Below, piece by piece: positions 1 through 8,076 of a stretch of DNA of 8,076 nucleotides. The position numbers were made by a program, and so were the translations under genes. Location of the stretch: NCBI GenBank assembly GCA_016183065.1, contig JACPFF010000013.1:1-8076 (forward strand). Reading direction: 5' to 3'. The first letter of the stretch is position 1. Each line of letters begins with the position of its first letter. The notes under the pieces were generated by a model. The model worked only from the letters and a program-made list of their open reading frames with translations. It was not told where the DNA came from and made no database searches. Origin of the DNA: Deltaproteobacteria bacterium. Lineage in GTDB: Bacteria > UBA10199 > GCA-002796325 > JACPFF01.

Positions 1-95
1 AACACCAAGCGCTGTTCTGTCTTCGACGACCGAACCCAACCCTCTAAAATCCTACGGTCTTCTTCGGTCACCACTACCCTCGGGGCGTGTCTCAT
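1..95 (-). CDS. IS630-family transposase, N-terminal fragment (runs off window)
   Basis: On the minus strand an ATG at 95-93 opens 31 codons that run off the window edge without a stop. The peptide begins MRHAPRVVVTEEDRRILEGW and continues with V-R-S-S-K-T-E-Q-R-L-V. This matches the typical IS630 transposase N-terminus: an Ala-Pro then a hydrophobic run, T-x-E-E/D-R, L-E, and a basic R-S-S-x-T-x-x-R-L segment, which form the start of the helix-turn-helix DNA-binding region. The DDE catalytic domain would lie outside the window. A G-run (AGGGGGG) sits immediately before the ATG, too close for an ideal Shine-Dalgarno. The frame is too short for standard ORF callers, but the family pattern is distinctive. 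Confidence 0.75.
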   Translation of the reverse strand, partial: MRHAPRVVVTEEDRRILEGWVRSSKTEQRLV

Positions 96-137
96 CCCCC
101 CTGCTTATTACATAATAGAACTTTTGTCACTATATAC
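1..137 (-). mobile_element. End of an IS630-family insertion sequence (5' end of element)
   Basis: The transposase start on the minus strand at 95 and the AT-rich stretch 103-138 mark the 5' end of an IS630-like element that continues beyond the window start. IS630 elements insert at TA dinucleotides and usually have a short leader before the transposase. Here the TA-rich string at 131-138 (tatatacta) lies about 36-43 nt upstream of the start codon and directly precedes codons that read as the membrane helix of the neighbouring gene. The exact edge and terminal inverted repeat cannot be fixed because the other end is outside the window. The minus-strand sequence tagtgacaaaagttc, reading inward from about 133, is a candidate terminal repeat. 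Confidence 0.6.
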
Positions 138-190
138 TAGGACTGATCTGCATCGGGCTGGCCCTGTTCATTCTCCTGGCCGTCCATCTC

Positions 191-1174
191 ATGCCTACAT
201 CGCCAGAACGGGGAGGTGCCTTGATCGAACGATACCGTGCACTTCTCACTCTCCCCCCCATCAAACAGTCTGACCGATGGAAGATCGCTCGAACAAGCAT
301 CCGGCTCATCCAGGACAGACCCTTCAGCGGATGGGGTTTGGGGAGCTACCGATTTGTCTTCCCGGAGTATGCCTACGCCCAAGACAAGACCTCGATGGCC
401 ACGGCCTCAGACTGGCTCATGCATCCGCATAACGAGTTATTACATCAGGCGGCAGAATTGGGCTTGTTGGGACTGGGGGCATGCATCGGTCTTTGCGGAT
501 TGTTGTATGGGTATGGGATCGCCCGTCTGAAAACCACGCAAGATCGTGCGGAGCGACAGGTCCTCTTGCTGGCCTTAGCCGGGCTGACCGTCAGCCTGAC
601 GAGTTGGCAATTCTCCACGAATTTTCTCTTTCCCTTGTCCCGACTCGTCACCGCTTGCTATGTTGGGATGCTCTGGCGCGCAATAGCGCCCTCTCTCGGA
701 TCCTTGGTGGTCTTTGAAAAGGCCTTAGGCCGCCTCCGCGGGAGGTCCTTGCGAAGAGTTATGGTGTTTGGCATCACCCTGGCCGCCTTGGTGCTGGCAT
801 CGGAGCACGTGAGCCTCTATTGTTCTCGCCAGAGTGCCCGCGCTGCGCACTCTGTCGAACGTCGTGATTGGGCCCGCTGGGCCCATCGTCTCGCCCCAGG
901 GGCATTCACCGCCCTCTTTCCGTATGCGGTCCTTTCGCTTGGGGAGGGATCGCTCAATACTGCCAGACCCCTCGTCGAGGCACTCCACCGTACCTACCCC
1001 TATGTCCCAGCGGCCTTGATGGCCCTGGCCGAGTTGCATCTTCGCGAAGGGAATCTGCCAGCGGCCAAAAAGGCGTTACGGCACGCCGTAGCCAACGATC
1101 CCCATTTTTTGGCCGCACAAACTTTGTTGCAAACCGTGGTGACGACTGAAGAGAGGTCTCTCCCCTCTCCCTGA
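191..1174 (+). CDS. O-antigen ligase/polymerase-like membrane protein (Wzy_C type) with C-terminal TPR; 5' end lost to IS insertion
   Basis: This is the C-terminal part of an O-antigen ligase or polymerase-like polytopic membrane protein, a family that handles undecaprenyl-linked glycan outside the inner membrane. A G-W-G-L-G-S-Y motif near residue 47 precedes H-P-H-N-E-L-L-H followed by A-E-L-G-L-L-G-L-G near residues 78-95, the typical Wzy_C periplasmic-loop signature. Hydrophobic segments follow at about 91-113, 123-165 and 189-206. The last ~110 residues read as TPR-like helices with A-L-x-x-L-A-E-L-H-L-R-E-G-N and A-K-K-A-L-R-H-A-V-A-N-D-P. The first ATG is at 191, but the frame is open from 119 and codons 137-190 encode a strongly hydrophobic helix (LGLICIGLALFILLAVHL). 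The native start was therefore upstream and is missing. Full-length family members are usually 400 residues or more, so this is probably a pseudogene remnant. No convincing Shine-Dalgarno precedes 191. Confidence 0.75.
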   Translation: MPTSPERGGALIERYRALLTLPPIKQSDRWKIARTSIRLIQDRPFSGWGLGSYRFVFPEYAYAQDKTSMATASDWLMHPHNELLHQAAELGLLGLGACIGLCGLLYGYGIARLKTTQDRAERQVLLLALAGLTVSLTSWQFSTNFLFPLSRLVTACYVGMLWRAIAPSLGSLVVFEKALGRLRGRSLRRVMVFGITLAALVLASEHVSLYCSRQSARAAHSVERRDWARWAHRLAPGAFTALFPYAVLSLGEGSLNTARPLVEALHRTYPYVPAALMALAELHLREGNLPAAKKALRHAVANDPHFLAAQTLLQTVVTTEERSLPSP

Positions 1175-1223
1175 TCATCCACGCTGATACGGGGGCTCAT
1201 ATCACCCCCTCCACGGGCACCGC

Positions 1224-1273
1224 TCGTGGGGCCCTCCCCTTCAACGCCGCGGTGCGGCTGGGTCGTGGGGCCC
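1224..1273. repeat. Short direct repeat TCGTGGGGCCC
   Basis: The 11-mer TCGTGGGGCCC occurs at 1224-1234 and again at 1263-1273, 39 nt apart, in the non-coding gap. A 7-bp inverted repeat (GCACCGC at 1217-1223, GCGGTGC at 1249-1255) overlaps it. This could be a regulator-binding arrangement upstream of the promoter or parts of a termination structure. The sequence does not decide between them. Confidence 0.3.
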
Positions 1274-1280
1274 CACTTTT
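1265..1280 (+). terminator. Possible weak terminator: GTGGGGCCCCAC palindrome plus T-run
   Basis: A perfect 12-bp palindrome GTGGGGCCCCAC (1265-1276) is followed directly by TTTT and then GTGT. As RNA it could fold only as a short GTGG/CCAC stem with a four-base loop. It would be a weak intrinsic terminator for the upstream gene at best. It could equally be a protein-binding palindrome upstream of the promoter at 1319. Confidence 0.25.
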
Positions 1281-1318
1281 GTGTCGAAAAGATTTCTTTC
1301 CCTTCATATCGCCGAGTT

Positions 1319-1327
1319 TGCTACAAT
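1319..1327 (+). promoter_or_regulatory. Extended -10 promoter (TGC-TACAAT) for the secreted-protein genes
   Basis: TGCTACAAT at 1319-1327 fits a sigma-70-type extended -10 element: TG, one base, then TACAAT with one mismatch to TATAAT. The expected start of transcription is near 1333-1335. No good -35 hexamer is visible 16-19 nt upstream, where the sequence is TTTCCCTT-like; extended -10 promoters often tolerate this. The predicted start falls 3-5 nt before the ATG at 1338, which would give an almost leaderless transcript and places the earlier in-frame GTG at 1281 outside it. Confidence 0.45.
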
Positions 1328-1337
1328 ACATTCCTTC

Positions 1338-3917
1338 ATGTGCGTTCGACGAAAAGGGGTTGTCAGAGTCCTCCTGTGCGCAGGGGTCCTGTTTTTTGTC
1401 TCCGGGGGTGTTCTTGGGGGGGGCCTTGTGGCAGACGCGTTTGCGGCGCCTGGGAGGGATCCAGGCAAGTCTCTACTTTTTTCCCCGGCGCTGAGGGCCA
1501 AGCATTCCGTCTGGCAGCAGATGCAGTCCCACACACAGTCCAAAGTCCCTTCTGCCGAACAGATCAAGCTTGTCGGAGAGCTCTGGCTAGCAATGCGTCT
1601 CGAAAAGGAGGCCAAGGAGAAGGGCTGCGCGAAGTCCGACCAATCGTCCCAGATCGATGCCAAGGAGGGGTTGCAACAGAAAGAGCCGCAGGACCAACTC
1701 CAGGACGCCCAATTGCTCAAAAAAGGATCTCTCGTCGTGCCAATCGGTCCACAAAGTTTCGACAAAGTCGTGGACACTTGTGTCGGCGAGCAGGTGCAAG
1801 AGTGGTTTTGCGTCACCCATGCCTCGGGGAAGCTGTCCGGGATGAGTTTTAACTTTTACTGCCCCACCGGTACGGCCTGTGACAACGGGGCGTGTCAGCC
1901 CGTCGGCAGTAACGGGTGCCTCCCCGGTCAGGCACCGTTCTTGGACGTCACCGGCAACGGGGTCCCGGATAGTTGCATCTGTCCATCCACAATGGTGCCG
2001 ATCGATGTCAACAAGGATGACAACTCTGATACCTGTCTCCTGAAAGGCCAGATTTGTGCCGATTTGTCTGGCGATCACACTCCCGAAGAACTCCAAGAGC
2101 TCTTAAAGGGGTATCCCCCCGGGACCATTAACGACATCTACGACCCCGTCACGGGGGAGAGCCAAAAACTCTTCAGTTATTGTGCACCGGTGCAAGAGAC
2201 CGCGGGGTGTTGGAAGAAGACCGTGCAACACCTCACCTGTAGTGCCGAGCAGGTGTCGAGCAGTTCCTCAACCCCCTGTCCACCGGGGCACCTTTGTGAA
2301 GAAGGCGCGTGCCAGCCGACGGGGGGCGGCACATGCGACGCCTCGCACATGGATCTCACCGCCGAGGGGTACGGCTACGTGGCCTTGGTCGATAGCGTGG
2401 GGACGAGCAGTTTCTATGGTGATCTGTGCGATGAGGATCCCACCAAGGTCAAAAATGCCGCCTGCAGCAATGATTGCGGCGGGTCGATGGAATGGGTAAC
2501 TTCGGCGTGCCAATCCGGGGCGCTGTGCGACGTGGAGAGCAATACGTGTCAATGGATTGGGCTCGATGGCAAACCGGACGACGGGATCGATTGCACCAAG
2601 ACCCCGAAGGACCCCGCGTGTGAGGGCGTGGACTGCGCCAAGACCCCCACGGATTCGAAGTGCGTTGGGCCGAGTGGTGGGGGCGGCGGCACCCCGGATT
2701 GCTCGACGAAGACAACGCCCATCTGCCAGAATGACTCGGACCCTACCCAAGACGTCTATCTCTTCGGGACGCTCGATAGTGGGGTGCTGATCGATCTCTG
2801 CGTTCCGCTCCCCGATGTGGAACAGGTCAAGCCGAAAAAAGATACCTGTACGGTCAACAAGGGGGTCCCGACGCTCTATCAGTACGAGTGTCAGGGCAAT
2901 GCGGCGATCATGACCGGGACGTTGTGTCAGGCGAATGAGGTGGAAGGGTGCACGCCGTCGACGCTGGTCATGGAAGACTGTGATGCGAACGCGAAGAGCG
3001 ATGAGGCAAAGGGCGTGTGCAAGCTTTTCACCGCGCCAAAATGTACCGACACGAGCCTCGATGCCAATACATTGAGTGTGGTCGGGACAGTCTCGGGGAC
3101 CGATGGCTTTGGGCACCCCTTTGAAAAAACCGACCAGTGTGAGCCCTCACAGGGTTTTGATGTCGTGGTGAAGTACCATTGCGCCGAGCCCTGCGAGCCA
3201 GGCTATTCGCAAGGGTATCGATACGATCTCGTGTCTTGCCCCACCAATCAGGAATGCGCTGGGGGGATCTGTGTGACCCCACCGAAACCGGACACGAAGA
3301 CCTGTCAGGATATGCCGGCAAGTCCGGCGTGCACCGATGCGGATCAAGACACGGTGGTGGACCTCTTCGATAATTGTTGCGGAGTGGCGGACAATTTCAC
3401 GAAGTGCCCGACACCGAACCCGGACCAGGCCGATCAGGATACAGATGGCATCGGCGATGCCTGTGACGCCAAGCCGACAGAGGCGAGCGACCTCGACAAG
3501 GATACCATTCCCGATGCGGTGGATAATTGTCCGATGGTGCCGAATGGCCCCGCGGAGGCCACACTCGCCGGCGTGGGGAATCAAACGGATAGCGATGCCG
3601 ATGGGATCGGGGACGCCTGCGAGGTGGCCACGGTCGATTGCGCCAAGGAACCGGCTAATCCGTTGTGCCAGGCCGGTGGAGAGCCGCATCTCTGCGAGGA
3701 TACCGACAAGGGGAACGGCGGGAACCTCTTCTTCCACGGCGACGTGTTTATCGACAAGGGAACGCCGGGGCAGTTGTATCAAGGCGATTATTGCGTGGAC
3801 GATTTCACCGCCGTGATGGAAATCGGGTGCGGCCCGCAGGGGAAGATGTTCGTGGGCAAAAAATGGGGATGCCCAGGGGGGACCGTCTGTGACCAGGGGG
3901 CGTGTCAACAACCGTAG
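1338..3917 (+). CDS. Secreted Cys-rich multimodular protein with thrombospondin type 3 repeats
   Basis: I do not recognise this ~859-residue protein as a named gene. From ATG 1338 it begins MCVRRKGVVRVLLCAGVLFF, a clear Sec signal peptide with a basic n-region, a long hydrophobic core and likely cleavage after A-F-A near residue 36. An in-frame GTG at 1281 would add 19 residues before this signal and lies upstream of the likely promoter, so I prefer 1338. Residues ~40-125 are polar, Gln/Lys/Glu-rich and probably helical. The rest is Cys-rich, with repeated endings such as C-P-T-G-T-A-C-D-N-G-A-C-Q-P, C-P-P-G-H-L-C-E-E-G-A-C-Q-P and C-P-G-G-T-V-C-D-Q-G-A-C-Q at the C-terminus. A D-V-T-G-N-G-V-P-D site and D-V-N-K-D-D-N-S-D near residues 200-230 look calcium-binding, as does the thrombospondin type 3 block. 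No enzyme motif or membrane anchor is seen. The next gene overlaps or lies 10 nt downstream, suggesting an operon. A structural or adhesive surface role is inference. Confidence 0.8.
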   Translation: MCVRRKGVVRVLLCAGVLFFVSGGVLGGGLVADAFAAPGRDPGKSLLFSPALRAKHSVWQQMQSHTQSKVPSAEQIKLVGELWLAMRLEKEAKEKGCAKSDQSSQIDAKEGLQQKEPQDQLQDAQLLKKGSLVVPIGPQSFDKVVDTCVGEQVQEWFCVTHASGKLSGMSFNFYCPTGTACDNGACQPVGSNGCLPGQAPFLDVTGNGVPDSCICPSTMVPIDVNKDDNSDTCLLKGQICADLSGDHTPEELQELLKGYPPGTINDIYDPVTGESQKLFSYCAPVQETAGCWKKTVQHLTCSAEQVSSSSSTPCPPGHLCEEGACQPTGGGTCDASHMDLTAEGYGYVALVDSVGTSSFYGDLCDEDPTKVKNAACSNDCGGSMEWVTSACQSGALCDVESNTCQWIGLDGKPDDGIDCTKTPKDPACEGVDCAKTPTDSKCVGPSGGGGGTPDCSTKTTPICQNDSDPTQDVYLFGTLDSGVLIDLCVPLPDVEQVKPKKDTCTVNKGVPTLYQYECQGNAAIMTGTLCQANEVEGCTPSTLVMEDCDANAKSDEAKGVCKLFTAPKCTDTSLDANTLSVVGTVSGTDGFGHPFEKTDQCEPSQGFDVVVKYHCAEPCEPGYSQGYRYDLVSCPTNQECAGGICVTPPKPDTKTCQDMPASPACTDADQDTVVDLFDNCCGVADNFTKCPTPNPDQADQDTDGIGDACDAKPTEASDLDKDTIPDAVDNCPMVPNGPAEATLAGVGNQTDSDADGIGDACEVATVDCAKEPANPLCQAGGEPHLCEDTDKGNGGNLFFHGDVFIDKGTPGQLYQGDYCVDDFTAVMEIGCGPQGKMFVGKKWGCPGGTVCDQGACQQP
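1416..1423 (+). repeat. G8 homopolymer inside the signal-peptide codons
   Basis: Eight consecutive G bases (codons ctt ggg ggg ggc) lie in the hydrophobic part of the signal peptide of the first secreted protein, about 80 nt after its start. Homopolymers of this length can slip in replication, and also in sequencing. Confidence 0.5.
3336..3623 (+). other. Thrombospondin type 3 calcium-binding block within the first secreted protein
   Basis: This stretch encodes Asp-rich calcium-binding repeats: D-A-D-Q-D-T-V-V-D-L-F-D-N-C, then P-N-P-D-Q-A-D-Q-D-T-D-G-I-G-D-A-C, D-L-D-K-D-T-I-P-D-A-V-D-N-C-P, and N-Q-T-D-S-D-A-D-G-I-G-D-A-C. The D-x-D-x-D-G-I-G-D-A-C pattern with D-N-C-P is diagnostic of thrombospondin type 3 repeats, which bind several Ca2+ ions and stiffen extracellular proteins. 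An extra Cys pair (D-N-C-C-G-V) and a loop N-G-P-A-E-A-T-L-A-G-V-G interrupt the canonical spacing. Confidence 0.8.
3875..3891 (+). promoter_or_regulatory. Shine-Dalgarno-like AGGGGGG before GTG 3889
   Basis: AGGGGGG (3875-3881) lies seven bases before an in-frame GTG at 3889, inside the 3' end of the preceding gene. It supports that GTG as the start of the giant downstream gene. The same bases also code for Pro-Gly-Gly in the upstream protein, so the match may be partly coincidental. Confidence 0.35.
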
Positions 3918-6900
3918 GGCGTGGGGCATGATCGTCGGGTGGCTGTGCGTGGGCTGGATGGGGGTGGCCCAGGCCCAACCGTCCGCGATGGGGAGCGGGG
4001 CGTGGTATCAGCAGCGGGTCCCGCCGCCGAGTGAACGGGTGCAAGTACCGCCGCCAGGGGTGCTGGGAAGCCCGCCCACGGCGGTCAATCCGGCGGAGAC
4101 CGGCCCGCGCCGCGTCACCGACCCGCGGTGGGTGCCGGACATTTCGCCGGTGACTTTTCCCTGTCAGACCGATAAATCGTGTGCCATTCTTGGGGTGGGG
4201 TGGATCTGTGTGAACCACCAATGTGTGCGCCGTTGCGCCGATTCGGATAGTGCCACGCCGGTCGACAGCCCCGGGAATGTGACAGACCCCGCCAATTATG
4301 CCGAGGTCTCTCCTCCGAAGCCCTGGTTGGCCATCGATGCGCTCCAACGGATGATTCCTGGGAAGACGGTCTATTATTCCGCGGCGACGCAGCAGAAGCC
4401 GGCGCAGCAAGTGACGATGCTGGATGGGTGCAAGGGGGCGATGCTGCGGGAGCAGTACTGTGTGCTCGAGTCATCACCGACGGTCTGGTGGCTGCTGACC
4501 CACGACGCTGAGACAGACTGGTGTCCGGCGGGGATGACGTGTCAATTGGGCACGATCCCCGGGACCACGCAGCAGGCGGGCTATTGCGCGCCGATCGACC
4601 AGCCGCCGCCACCGGAGTGTGATGCGGCAACTGATGATTGCTGTGTCAACGGGACGACGGTCGTCGATGTGTGTCCCCAGCCGGGGTGTCAGACCCTCAA
4701 GAGCGAGTGCCCGGACGATCTCTGCCCCGACACGCCGGCAGTGGACACGAAGTACCCCTTCACCAGCCCGGATGGAAAGACCGGGTGGTGTGGGGAGTGC
4801 GTCGATACCGATCAGCCCAATGACCTGCTGAAGAAGGGCGTGGTGACCTTCGCCGATGGCACGACGCATACGGACGTTTGCGTGGAGAAGGGGACGGAGG
4901 TCAAGCAAGTCGATTGCGGGCCCGAGGGGACCCTGCGTGCCCCGACGAGCCCGTGTCCGGCGGGGTGTCTCGATGGGGCCTGCCTCCCCGATCTCTGTGT
5001 GGACAAACCCGTGGACGATCAGAACCTCTGCACCAAGGATACGTGCGACCCGGCGACGGGCCAGATGAGCCATCTGCCAGTGGCGTGTCCGATGGGGCAA
5101 CAGTGTACGCCGGCGACCGGGGCGTGTGCACCGGTCCCCTCGTGCGGGAATGGGCTGCTCGAGGCCCCGGAGGCCTGTGACGACGGCAACACCGCGAGTG
5201 GGGATGGCTGCGATGCCGCCTGCAAACCCGAGTGTCCCAACTATGTCTACGTGGCGAATGATGCCCAGGGGTTGCAGGTGGTGGACATTACAAAGCCCAC
5301 GGCGCCGACGGTGGTGGGGTCCGTGGACACGCCGGGTGCTGCCTTTGGTGTCGCAGTGGCCGGGTCCTATGCCTACGTGGCGACTTCTTCCAAGGGGTTG
5401 CAGGTGGTGAACGTGACACATCCGAAGGCGCCGACGCTGGTCGGGTACGTGGACACGCTGGGTTTTGCCACTGATGTCGCGGTGGCCGGGCCCTATGCCT
5501 ACGTGGCGAGTGGTTACGATGGGCTGAAGGCGGTGGACATTACAAAGCCCAAGGCGCTGACGCTGGTCGGGTCCGTGGACACGCCGGGTGATGCCCTTGC
5601 TGTCGCGGTGGCTGGGGCCTATGCCTACGTGGCGGATTATTCCAAGGGGTTGCAGGTGGTGGACATTACAAAGCCCACGTTTCTGACGCTGGTCGGCTCC
5701 CTGGCCATGCCGGATGCTGCCCGTGCTGTCGTGGTGGCCGGATCCTATGCCTACGTAGCGGATTATTCCAAGGGGTTGCAGGTGGTGGACATTACGAAGC
5801 CCACGACGCCGACGGTGGTCGGGTCCGTGGCCATGCCGGGTGATGCCCGTGCTGTCGCGGTGGCCGGGGCCTATGTCTACGTGGCGAATGATGCCCAGGG
5901 GTTGCAGGTAGTGGACATTACAAAGCCCACGGCGCCGACAGTGGTCGGGTCCGTGGACACGCCGGGTAAGGCCTCGAGGGTCGCGGTGGCCGGGTCCTAT
6001 GCTTACGTGGCGGATGGTTACAAGGGGCTGCAGGTGGTGGACGTGACGCAGCCGACGGCGCCACTGTTGGTCGGGAGCACGGAGGTGGCGGGAAATTCAT
6101 TTGATATCGCCCTCGGCGGGTTTTCCGAATGTGCGGTCGGTCCGGTGACGGATCCCTGTTTCGAGCAACCCCTCGACGACGCCAACGCCTGCACGACCGA
6201 CGCGTGCGATGTCACGACCGGCCAAGTGACTCACACGCCGGTGGCGTGTCCGGCGGGCCAGGCATGCGCGGCTGACACGGGGACCTGTGCCCCGATTGAC
6301 CTTTGTGCTGGCGTCCCGGTAGACGATACCGATCCGTGTACGGTCGATGTCTGTGACAGCACGACGGGGGCGGTCACGCATACGGCGGTCGTGGTGGATG
6401 ATGGGACGGCCTGCACGGTGGATAGCTGCGAGGCGACGACGGGGACGGTGGTCCATACCCCGATCGCTATCGACGATGCCAACGCCTGCACGACCGACGC
6501 GTGCGACCCGGCGACGGGGCAGGTGACTCACACGCCGGTGGCGTGTCCGGCGGGACAACAGTGTACACCGGCGACCGGGACGTGTGCGGTGCTCGATGTG
6601 TGCGAGGGGCAGACCGTGGATGATAGCGATTCGTGCACGGCGGACAGTTGCGACCCGGCGACGGGGATGATCGCGCATCTCTCGTTAACCACCGAGCCTT
6701 CCGGAAAGGCGTGCACGTTGGAATGCCCCGCAGGCGAGACGAGAATGTGGGAGAAGGTGAATGAGAACTTACTCTTAAATTCGCAATATTATATACGGAA
6801 GCTCCATTCTCACAATGGAATGCTCTTTGCGTGTACTATATACGCTGGCTTACTCCGTTCGCAGGACAATGGAATATCTTGGCAGGCGGTGAACGTCGAT

Positions 6901-8076
6901 CAATGGGAAGAGGGCACGAATGCAGTATCTTGCGAAGATATTTACACCCATAAGGGGAATCTCTATCTCGTAATCAATGCAATTCAATCCGGGGCAACAC
7001 ATTTTCATATTTATCGTTCGTTAGACAATGGCATGACATGGGAACTCATCGAACAGAATTTATCATTGGAGGACGATTTTTTTAAGGGTACCCCATTTTT
7101 CCACACACACGGAGAAAAATTGTTGCTGCCATTTTATGATGGGCACGTGTTTCAGTTTAATGAAACAACGGCTTCATGGGAGGCCTTTGTAAATTTCGAT
7201 GAGTATACTGGGCTTGAAGCGGCGGAGACACATAACGGCTCTCTCTTTGTTGGTACAAATGCTCAGGGGATCTATCATTTGGTCAATGGAACTGTGTGGC
7301 AAACAGTGGGTGTGTTTCCAAATACCTCCTATACCACTGTGAGAAATTTGTTGTCTGTTCAGGGAACCTTGTATGCAAGCGGTGCCATACCGCTTTCTCC
7401 AAATACTCCAGAACTCGTTTATCGGAGTGAAGATGGGGGAAAGAATTGGGTTCAGGTTGGGGGTGAGGTTGGTGTAGAGTATCTAAAGGATCTGCATCGT
7501 TTTAAGAGCGAGATCTTTTTGGCGACAGTGGCCACAATCTATAAGCTTAATGAAAACAGTAATTCATGGGACAAGGCCGAGCAGGGAATCGAGACGTTAC
7601 TGGACTTTAGAGCTTTCGAAACTCATTTGGATAAACTGTACGTTGCCGATCAAGAGAATATCTATCGTTACGAATGTGCAACGGCCTCCGTAACGGACCT
7701 CTGTTTCGAGAAACCCCTCGACGACGCCAACGCCTGCACGACCGACGCATGTGACCTGGCCACGGGCCAGGTGAGCCACCTGCCGGTGGCGTGTCCAGCG
7801 GGCCAGGCGTGTGCGGCTGACACGGGGATGTGCGCGGTGCTCGATGTGTGCGGGAATGGGCTACTCGAGGCCCCGGAGGCCTGTGACGACGGCAACACCG
7901 CGAGTGGGGATGGCTGCGATGCCGCCTGCCAGACCGAGTGTCCCAGCTATGCCTATGTGGTGGGTTATGCCAATGGGCTGCAGGTGGTGGACATTACAAA
8001 GCCCACGACGCCACTGTTGGTCGGGGCCCTGGACACGCCGGGTGTTGCCCGTGCTGTCGCGGTGGCCGGGGCCTAT
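3889..8076 (+). CDS. Giant secreted mosaic protein: Cys-rich modules with LVIVD and Asp-box beta-propellers (incomplete at window end)
   Basis: This frame is open for about 1,396 codons and leaves the window without a stop. I chose GTG 3889 because it gives a basic n-region (T-R-G-R-V-N-N-R-R) before the hydrophobic core and A-Q-A cleavage site (Ala ends at 3975), with a G-run seven bases upstream. ATG 3928 is the alternative: AGGG stands eight bases upstream, but that signal peptide lacks any basic residue. Domain order by position: signal peptide 3889-3975; Pro-rich 3976-4160; Cys-rich with C-P-A-G-M-T-C 4162-4797; Cys module shared with the upstream gene 4798-4989; CTDC-type repeat 4993-5142; myxobacterial-type disulfide repeat 5143-5235; seven LVIVD units 5242-6123; CTDC-type stack 6157-6690; AT-rich Asp-box propeller 6730-7671; CTDC-type repeat 7702-7848; second myxobacterial-type repeat 7849-7941; start of a second LVIVD array 7948 onward. 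No catalytic signature is seen. By family knowledge these are extracellular interaction domains; adhesion or matrix function is inference. Export is supported by the signal peptide and dense paired cysteines. Confidence 0.85.
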   Translation, partial: MTRGRVNNRRAWGMIVGWLCVGWMGVAQAQPSAMGSGAWYQQRVPPPSERVQVPPPGVLGSPPTAVNPAETGPRRVTDPRWVPDISPVTFPCQTDKSCAILGVGWICVNHQCVRRCADSDSATPVDSPGNVTDPANYAEVSPPKPWLAIDALQRMIPGKTVYYSAATQQKPAQQVTMLDGCKGAMLREQYCVLESSPTVWWLLTHDAETDWCPAGMTCQLGTIPGTTQQAGYCAPIDQPPPPECDAATDDCCVNGTTVVDVCPQPGCQTLKSECPDDLCPDTPAVDTKYPFTSPDGKTGWCGECVDTDQPNDLLKKGVVTFADGTTHTDVCVEKGTEVKQVDCGPEGTLRAPTSPCPAGCLDGACLPDLCVDKPVDDQNLCTKDTCDPATGQMSHLPVACPMGQQCTPATGACAPVPSCGNGLLEAPEACDDGNTASGDGCDAACKPECPNYVYVANDAQGLQVVDITKPTAPTVVGSVDTPGAAFGVAVAGSYAYVATSSKGLQVVNVTHPKAPTLVGYVDTLGFATDVAVAGPYAYVASGYDGLKAVDITKPKALTLVGSVDTPGDALAVAVAGAYAYVADYSKGLQVVDITKPTFLTLVGSLAMPDAARAVVVAGSYAYVADYSKGLQVVDITKPTTPTVVGSVAMPGDARAVAVAGAYVYVANDAQGLQVVDITKPTAPTVVGSVDTPGKASRVAVAGSYAYVADGYKGLQVVDVTQPTAPLLVGSTEVAGNSFDIALGGFSECAVGPVTDPCFEQPLDDANACTTDACDVTTGQVTHTPVACPAGQACAADTGTCAPIDLCAGVPVDDTDPCTVDVCDSTTGAVTHTAVVVDDGTACTVDSCEATTGTVVHTPIAIDDANACTTDACDPATGQVTHTPVACPAGQQCTPATGTCAVLDVCEGQTVDDSDSCTADSCDPATGMIAHLSLTTEPSGKACTLECPAGETRMWEKVNENLLLNSQYYIRKLHSHNGMLFACTIYAGLLRSQDNGISWQAVNVDQWEEGTNAVSCEDIYTHKGNLYLVINAIQSGATHFHIYRSLDNGMTWELIEQNLSLEDDFFKGTPFFHTHGEKLLLPFYDGHVFQFNETTASWEAFVNFDEYTGLEAAETHNGSLFVGTNAQGIYHLVNGTVWQTVGVFPNTSYTTVRNLLSVQGTLYASGAIPLSPNTPELVYRSEDGGKNWVQVGGEVGVEYLKDLHRFKSEIFLATVATIYKLNENSNSWDKAEQGIETLLDFRAFETHLDKLYVADQENIYRYECATASVTDLCFEKPLDDANACTTDACDLATGQVSHLPVACPAGQACAADTGMCAVLDVCGNGLLEAPEACDDGNTASGDGCDAACQTECPSYAYVVGYANGLQVVDITKPTTPLLVGALDTPGVARAVAVAGAY
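4798..4989 (+). other. Cys module shared with the upstream secreted protein
   Basis: The segment starts C-V-D-T-D-Q-P-N-D, continues K-K-G-V-V-T-F, H-T-D-V-C-V, V-K-Q-V-D-C-G, and ends C-P-A-G-C-L-D-G-A-C-L-P. The layout matches the last module of the upstream gene at 3693-3914 (C-E-D-T-D, F-H-G-D-V-F, G-D-Y-C-V, V-M-E-I-G-C-G-P, then C-P-G-G-T-V-C-D-Q-G-A-C). This ties the two adjacent genes together by descent or shared function. Confidence 0.6.
4993..5142 (+). other. CTDC-type Cys repeat, copy before the first propeller
   Basis: The encoded pattern is V-D-D-x-x-x-C-T-x-D-T-C-D-P-A-T-G-x-x-x-H-x-P-V-A-C-P-x-G-Q-Q-C-T-P-A-T-G-A-C. Its C-T-x-D-x-C-D-x-x-T-G core resembles the short Cys repeat first described in Dictyostelium extracellular proteins and also found in bacterial surface proteins. 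Near-identical segments recur at 6157-6690 and 7702-7848. Confidence 0.65.
5143..5235 (+). other. Myxobacterial-type disulfide repeat, copy 1
   Basis: The residues read C-G-N-G-L-L-E-A-P-E-A-C-D-D-G-N then T-A-S-G-D-G-C-D-A-A-C-K-P-E-C. This is the standard myxobacterial Cys-rich repeat pattern C-G-(D/N)-G-x-x-E-x-x-E-x-C-D-D-G-N-x-x-x-G-D-G-C-x-x-x-C. It lies directly before the first LVIVD propeller. Confidence 0.85.
5242..6123 (+). repeat. Seven tandem 126-nt LVIVD units: predicted seven-bladed beta-propeller
   Basis: Seven units begin with the codons Tyr-(Val/Ala)-Tyr-Val at 5242, 5368, 5494, 5620, 5746, 5872 and 5998, each exactly 126 nt (42 residues). The consensus is Y-A-Y-V-A, G-L-Q-V-V-D-I-T-K-P, A-P-T-x-V-G-S-V-D-T-P-G and V-A-V-A-G, which matches the LVIVD repeat family, a predicted beta-propeller blade. 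Seven blades is a common closed propeller size. Units 1 and 6 agree at 93 of 96 bases over their first 32 codons, and the starts of units 4 and 5 are also nearly identical. The last unit is the most diverged, ending in A-L-G-G-F. Confidence 0.85.
6157..6690 (+). repeat. Stack of five CTDC-type Cys repeats between the two propellers
   Basis: Five copies of D-D-x-x-x-C-T-x-D-x-C-(D/E)-x-x-T-G-x-x-x-H follow each other, with cores near 6175, 6319, 6397, 6475 and 6616. The first and fourth carry the long tail V-A-C-P-A-G-Q-x-C-x-x-x-T-G-x-C; the others are short. The first and fourth share long identical DNA stretches at an offset of 300 nt, for example around aacgcctgcacgaccgacgc. The stack probably forms a rod-like spacer. 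Confidence 0.65.
6730..7671 (+). other. AT-rich Asp-box (BNR-like) seven-bladed propeller domain within the giant protein
   Basis: About 314 residues in frame with the rest of the gene carry three clear Asp-box motifs S-x-D-x-G-x-x-W at 6859-6882 (S-Q-D-N-G-I-S-W), 7018-7041 (S-L-D-N-G-M-T-W) and 7426-7449 (S-E-D-G-G-K-N-W). Weaker W-containing turns lie between and after them. Seven strands of the type H-N-G-x-L-(F/Y)-x can be counted, starting with H-N-G-M-L-F, H-K-G-N-L-Y, H-G-E-K-L-L, H-N-G-S-L-F, V-Q-G-T-L-Y, F-K-S-E-I-F and H-L-D-K-L-Y. The last blade lacks its W strand, and M-W-E-K-V at the domain start could supply it, as in closed propellers. Such domains occur in sialidases and sortilin-like receptors, but I see no sialidase active-site pattern (no clear F/Y-R-I-P), so binding is likelier than hydrolysis. 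Base composition is strikingly lower in G+C than both flanks. Confidence 0.65.
7702..7848 (+). other. CTDC-type Cys repeat, copy after the Asp-box propeller
   Basis: C-F-E-K-P-L-D-D-A-N-A-C-T-T-D-A-C-D, then T-G-Q-V-S-H-L-P-V-A-C-P-A-G-Q-A-C. It is close at DNA level to the copy starting at 6157 (C-F-E-Q-P-L-D-D-A-N-A-C), an offset of 1,545 nt, so the same linker follows two unrelated propellers. Confidence 0.7.
7849..7941 (+). other. Myxobacterial-type disulfide repeat, copy 2
   Basis: Bases 7849-7929 match 5143-5223 at 80 of 81 positions (ctg versus cta at the fifth codon), at an offset of 2,706 nt. After that the copies diverge (C-K-P-E-C-P against C-Q-T-E-C-P). This copy again stands directly before an LVIVD array. 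Confidence 0.85.
7948..8076 (+). repeat. Start of a second LVIVD propeller array (cut by window end)
   Basis: One complete 126-nt unit starts at 7948 (Y-A-Y-V-V-G-Y-A-N-G-L-Q-V-V-D-I-T-K-P) and the first Tyr codon of a second unit falls at 8074. The phase is the same as the first array, so the protein continues with at least one more propeller. Confidence 0.8.

Follow-up and report, generated by a model that had tools for sequence, protein, structure and literature searches.

Two unrelated propellers with putative cysteine closures on the cysteine-rich stalk of a truncated bacterial surface protein

Organization of the locus

The window, by which is meant the whole stretch of DNA analysed here, is a complete contig (G000:C22) of 8076 bases from a draft genome of 1.97 Mb, which is divided over 30 contigs and is 88.8% complete. 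Its second half is occupied by a large surface-protein ORF, starting with GTG at 3889 or with ATG at 3928, in which two propellers alternate with Cys-rich modules. The features of this gene and of the gene preceding it, all on the forward (+) strand, are as follows.

1281–3917 (+), upstream gene, Cys-rich secreted-type protein with TSP3 repeats, overlapping or abutting the propeller gene
3889–8076 (+), surface-protein ORF, 1396 residues within the window, no stop before the contig end, 3' end lost
3928–3975 (+), signal-peptide-like stretch MIVGWLCVGWMGVAQA, as read off the translation
4996–5127 (+), CTDC collar unit with six Cys, ahead of propeller 1
5143–5229 (+), myxobacterial disulfide repeat (TIGR02232/DUF4215) with four Cys
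5230–5238 (+), E-C-P, N-terminal boundary of propeller 1, spare Cys at 5233–5235
5242–6123 (+), LVIVD propeller, seven blades of exactly 42 residues each, zero inner Cys
6127–6135 (+), E-C-A, C-terminal boundary of propeller 1, spare Cys at 6130–6132
6157–6714 (+), CTDC collar between the propellers, 20 Cys
6721–6729 (+), E-C-P, N-terminal boundary of propeller 2, Cys at 6724–6726
6748–7671 (+), Asp-box propeller, seven blades, with three canonical Asp-boxes (6859, 7018, 7426) and two inner Cys (6832, 6931)
7672–7680 (+), E-C-A, C-terminal boundary of propeller 2, Cys at 7675–7677
7702–7935 (+), six-Cys CTDC unit and four-Cys myxobacterial repeat
7936–7944 (+), third E-C-P boundary, Cys at 7939–7941
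7948–8076 (+), start of a second LVIVD array, which is cut by the contig end

The first four boundary tripeptides are in frame in one open ORF, exactly at the coordinates given in a preliminary description of this DNA, and the third E-C-P is likewise present before the next LVIVD array, three bases away from the position reported there (7933–7941). Further upstream of the surface-protein pair, at 191–1174, an O-antigen-ligase-like (Wzy_C) protein with a TPR tail is encoded.

The families are assigned from Pfam and NCBIfam profile matches, judged against the curated cut-offs. The LVIVD profile (PF08309) matches eight stretches of the ORF (E = 3.7e-74; 244.3 bits, cut-off 20.2), and the collar modules are matched by CTDC (PF00526; E = 3.7e-38; 129.4 bits, cut-off 27), by the myxobacterial repeat profile TIGR02232 (63.1 bits, cut-off 20.8) and by DUF4215 (E = 4.1e-13). 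The BNR/Asp-box profile (PF02012) is matched with E = 7e-7 and 28.7 bits, which is above its cut-off of 27, while Sortilin/VPS10 (PF15902) stays below the Pfam cut-off (25.5 bits vs 33), and the Asp-box ring is seven-bladed, not ten-bladed. No PKD domain is found among the Pfam matches to the in-window part of the protein, whose C-terminus lies beyond the contig end.

The LVIVD propeller

LVIVD repeats (PF08309) are 42 residues long, occur in bacterial and archaeal cell-surface proteins and are predicted to form propellers (PMC2447325; Adindla 2007). The AlphaFold2 model of the window's array, calculated with a 13-sequence alignment, has an overall pLDDT of 84.8, mostly above 90 in the ring, and consists of 28 strands (seven by four, model residues 35–326) with the boundary cysteines at 32 and 331; the confidence is lower near these boundaries, where the means of 10-residue blocks are 46–84 and 40–69. 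The best PDB match is the YVTN propeller of an archaeal S-layer protein (1l0q; Jing et al. 2002), with Z = 38.2 and an rmsd of 1.8 for 277 aligned residues, covering model residues 33–330. Like the window's LVIVD ring, the 1l0q ring is seven-bladed and comes from a tandem-repeat surface protein, whereas it is coupled to PKD, and the window's ring is placed between Cys-rich modules.

Within the array, blades 1 and 6 are 91% identical at the DNA level, and the closing blade 7 is just 64–70% identical to the others, which suggests, as far as such identities can be read, a recent tandem expansion between fixed ends.

The Asp-box propeller

The model of the second ring (AlphaFold2, five-sequence alignment) has a pLDDT of 74.2 and a pTM of 0.78 and also has seven blades, so that for both rings the model and the blade count agree with the two unrelated seven-bladed propellers proposed in the preliminary description. 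The N-terminal strand (residues 13–17) completes the last blade, which otherwise has three strands, and the boundary cysteines are at 7 and 324. The confidence is again lower near the boundaries (10-residue block means of 53–79 and 34–63), and one strand of blade 3 is absent from the model, within a low-confidence stretch. The ring holds three canonical Asp-boxes (S-x-D-x-G-x-x-W), where two is the minimum by which Asp-box propellers are recognized. In Asp-box propellers the N-terminal strand closes the last blade, and there are fewer Asp-boxes than blades (PMC2716378); because of this strand, the closing blade cannot hold an Asp-box of its own (PMC2716378). The window's ring shares the motifs, the closing strand and the low number of boxes with these propellers and differs from the known ones in having a Cys pair where the Asp-box of the closing blade would be. 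The two inner cysteines, residue 982 in blade 1 (6832–6834) and residue 1015 in blade 2 (6931–6933), may form an extra bond inside the ring.

The best structural match of this model has Z = 24.6, and the whole ring (model residues 12–325) is matched by 2z2p with Z = 24.4 and an rmsd of 2.9 for 283 aligned residues. The top fold matches are virginiamycin B lyase rings (Z of 24), together with many WD40 rings. It could be asked from these matches, and from the frequent presence of Asp-box propellers in glycosidases (PMC2716378), if the propellers have a catalytic function (lyase-, lactonase- or glycosidase-like) instead of being binding heads. This is improbable, since the sequence identity with the fold matches is just 6–10%, a common fold being no proof of function, and no enzyme family is above the Pfam or NCBIfam cut-off for this protein. 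Judging from surface proteins of the repeat families found here, the protein probably serves in binding or adhesion.

The boundary cysteines are at the interrupted hairpins of the closing blades

When the blades are tabulated, each Cys pair falls on the hairpin at which the closing (Velcro) blade is interrupted. For the LVIVD ring this break is at the A-B turn, where the internal copies have VAVAGS-YAYVAD and the two ends have SFDIALGGFSEC and ECPNYVYVAND. For the Asp-box ring it is at the C-D turn, where the internal sequence is IYRSLDNGMTWELI and the ends are NIYRYEC and ECPAGETRMWEKV. From these breaks it follows that in both closing blades a Cys pair takes the place of the turn that is absent. 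The Cys counts of the segments, leaving out the signal-peptide Cys and the boundary Cys, are 34 before ring 1, 0 inside the LVIVD ring, 20 between the rings, 2 inside the Asp-box ring and 10 after it; every count is even, and therefore the boundary cysteines are the spare ones. The hairpin positions in the models and the even counts together support putative terminal disulfides, and they are the strongest indication of ring closure in this analysis. Among 32 sampled LVIVD arrays, a Cys close to both ends is found in one, which is the window's own.

The tripeptides themselves have a simpler origin. All three propeller starts share a longer motif, A-C-x-x-E-C-P, which is absent from the preliminary description, and each ring is followed by the same collar unit, of which E-C-A is a part: EC....VTD[PL]CFE[QK]PLDDANACTTDAC. 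The first and third E-C-P are copies of one duplicated stretch, in which a myxobacterial repeat runs into an LVIVD array (82% DNA identity), and the Glu preceding their Cys belongs to the myxobacterial repeat, as the conserved residue with which it ends (C-x-x-E, or nearly so). The ECPAGE at the start of the Asp-box ring resembles the CPAGQ of the CTDC end-cap. A Glu directly precedes all five boundary cysteines, compared with 8 of 72 cysteines overall, and the corresponding hypergeometric figure of 4e-6 overstates independence because the five boundaries have only about three origins: the duplicated post-propeller collar, the duplicated unit of myxobacterial repeat and LVIVD array, and one CPAG-type boundary before the Asp-box ring. 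Tripeptide identity was rejected as independent evidence, the collar modules being homologous on both sides. Of the cassette architecture that had been derived from the shared tripeptides, what stands is the presence of unrelated rings in a Cys-rich collar with boundary cysteines placed for possible closure, while the identity of the tripeptides mostly reflects homologous collar modules. As read from the sequence, the signal is the additional Cys, not the tripeptide.

The strongest rival explanation is that one or more of the boundary cysteines belong to the collar and pair there with cysteines of the neighbouring CTDC units or myxobacterial repeats. The propellers would then be ordinary inserts closed by hydrogen bonds, and E-C-P and E-C-A would reflect nothing else than homologous modules, in agreement with the E-C-A that opens the same collar unit at both places, with the Glu taken from the myxobacterial repeat and with the end-cap similarity of ECPAGE. 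Such pairing is most open for Cys 6724 (C946), which has a neighbour (C942, at 6712) four residues before it, and it is also in line with an LVIVD ring of another phylum (L220, described below), which lacks spare Cys and presumably needs no disulfide for its closure. This explanation is nevertheless doubtful, although it deserves to be kept in mind, since the cysteines of the myxobacterial (four) and CTDC (six) units are even in number by themselves, so that one Cys is left over on each side of each ring, and since the boundary positions match the cut hairpins. Moreover, the C-x-x-E-C form is present in only 2 of 24 sampled myxobacterial repeats, both directly before LVIVD rings.

Relatives of the gene and its parts

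In a sister genus, the N-terminal 340 residues of the protein (39% identity) and the whole upstream gene are present side by side, on a contig that ends before the ring part. The upstream Cys-rich TSP3 gene (window 1281–3917) is 54% identical to its counterpart (L204, 1525–3981, minus strand), and the two secreted-type genes thus form a conserved pair. A relative of the TSP3 part of the upstream gene is also found at G026:C37:135844–136131, within an open frame of 12096 residues. Orthologues of the ring part are absent from the genomes searched, and this absence of the combination from any relative, the draft state of the genome and the end of the contig inside a repeat could indicate that the architecture is partly an assembly artefact, with misjoined repeats near the contig end, or a one-off fusion. 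We consider this very improbable, given that the frame is open through all modules, that the collar units are alike on both sides of the rings, and that the adjoining gene and the N-terminal region are kept together in the sister genus.

The preliminary description had called for a search for proteins with LVIVD and Asp-box propellers flanked by CTDC and myxobacterial-type repeats. LVIVD arrays are numerous in the 60, and then 385, genomes that were searched, and none is flanked by either module; the sampled arrays differ from the window's also in having no Cys at both ends. The other contigs of the source genome have no LVIVD match, and the tblastn matches in plasmids concern the LVIVD part only, none of them spanning most of the query. 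Distant relatives (19–26% identity in the alignment) are the only ones found for the Asp-box ring; a contig scan with the Asp-box half gave one Shouchella match, which is irrelevant. In the thresholded match lists, which make this a weak comparison, no LVIVD and Asp-box matches on the same contig are near enough to each other to belong to one gene. CTDC repeats, named after Dictyostelium slime moulds, are common in the window's class, where 27 of 46 genomes have matches above the cut-off, in ORFs of up to 3638 residues, and no such repeats are detected at E = 1e-8 in the other approximately 340 genomes of the 385-genome sample. Long inserts free of Cys are present in large Cys-rich ORFs of the same class, none of them being an LVIVD or Asp-box ring.

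LVIVD repeats are also encoded at seventeen viral-labelled loci (L146–L162, IMG/VR contigs), and these proteins might be virion adhesins or might come from host DNA. Four secreted-type proteins of the window's own genome (L205, L208, L207 and L025) have, at or near their end, GGGC[STQ]L followed by Arg (GGGCSLMVR, GGGCTLLLR), which from its sequence is perhaps a sorting or lipidation tail; a protein of the same class (L030) has GGGGC and a membrane helix.

A parallel in another phylum and known precedents

An independent parallel is L220 (G085:C102, ORF 3–4466), from an unrelated bacterium whose phylum has only three genomes in the searched set. Here a repeat of seven copies of 51 residues and an LVIVD ring, at residues 492–850 and 1049–1300, are carried on Cys-rich TSP3/MopE-like modules. 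The 51-residue repeat, LGSDLRVT...SLAWTGSEFGVSWDDNRDGN.EIYFARVSS, has no Pfam name; from its seven copies only, we infer that it may form a propeller. Its two ends are marked by Cys 492 and Cys 850, in the sequences EQC and GC, and this Cys pair is at the interrupted loop (SSAGAK) of the repeat, taking the place of the loop. L220 therefore resembles the window in combining an LVIVD ring with a second seven-copy repeat on Cys modules, the second repeat having a Cys on either side, and differs in the modules, which are two-Cys TSP3/MopE-like, and in the spare Cys, which are not on the LVIVD ring. Propeller-like repeats that alternate on Cys modules thus occur outside the window as well, and stapling by Cys is not confined to LVIVD.

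The earlier view that no comparable surface protein has been described is too strong, as there are precedents in SorLA and PON1. In SorLA (SORL1), propellers of the Asp-box (VPS10p) and YWTD types share one chain with 10CC and EGF Cys modules (PMC12667055). As in the window's protein, an Asp-box ring and an unrelated ring, each beside a Cys-rich module, are thus found in one extracellular chain, whereas the VPS10p propeller is ten-bladed, the second ring is YWTD and not LVIVD, and the protein is an animal receptor; its Cys modules sit beside the rings, while in the window one Cys is at each ring end. In PON1 the propeller is closed by a disulfide between the termini, Cys42–Cys353 (PMC7915308), and the Cys positions and even counts of the window fit such a closure. 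PON1 differs in being a six-bladed enzyme with a single propeller and no Cys-rich stalk.

Discussion

The best explanation, which we consider reasonably probable, is that the product of the gene is a secreted, Cys-rich stalk from which propellers hang, each closed by a predicted boundary disulfide that replaces a missing turn. It would be a modular surface protein, in which CTDC and myxobacterial disulfide units form the stalk and the propellers may serve as binding heads. Each propeller would be cut open at one hairpin of its closing blade, with one Cys per cut end, placed at the A-B turn in the LVIVD ring and at the C-D turn, the usual place of an Asp-box, in the other ring. The two cysteines most likely join as a disulfide that substitutes for the turn. 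The entry and exit of the chain would thereby lie at a single point of the ring, such that the ring is covalently closed and a pulling force on the stalk by-passes it. The oxidation of the cysteines, their exact pairing, the by-pass of force and the ligand-binding or adhesive role are what we infer in this explanation.

A more general rule is rather unlikely, though it can be formulated for bacterial surface proteins: any propeller could be plugged into a Cys-rich stalk via an opened closing-blade hairpin and a Cys pair, making unrelated rings exchangeable, covalently closed and by-passed by load. The parts are all known and their combination looks new, in one truncated gene from one draft genome, which makes the weight of the finding modest. 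Should the disulfides be real, the same covalent solution has arisen within one chain in two propellers that are unrelated and differ in their closing hairpins, and in another phylum in a third unrelated repeat. If true, this would provide a testable design rule for placing ring domains in extracellular stalks, which would help in protein design and in making sense of giant surface proteins from uncultivated bacteria.
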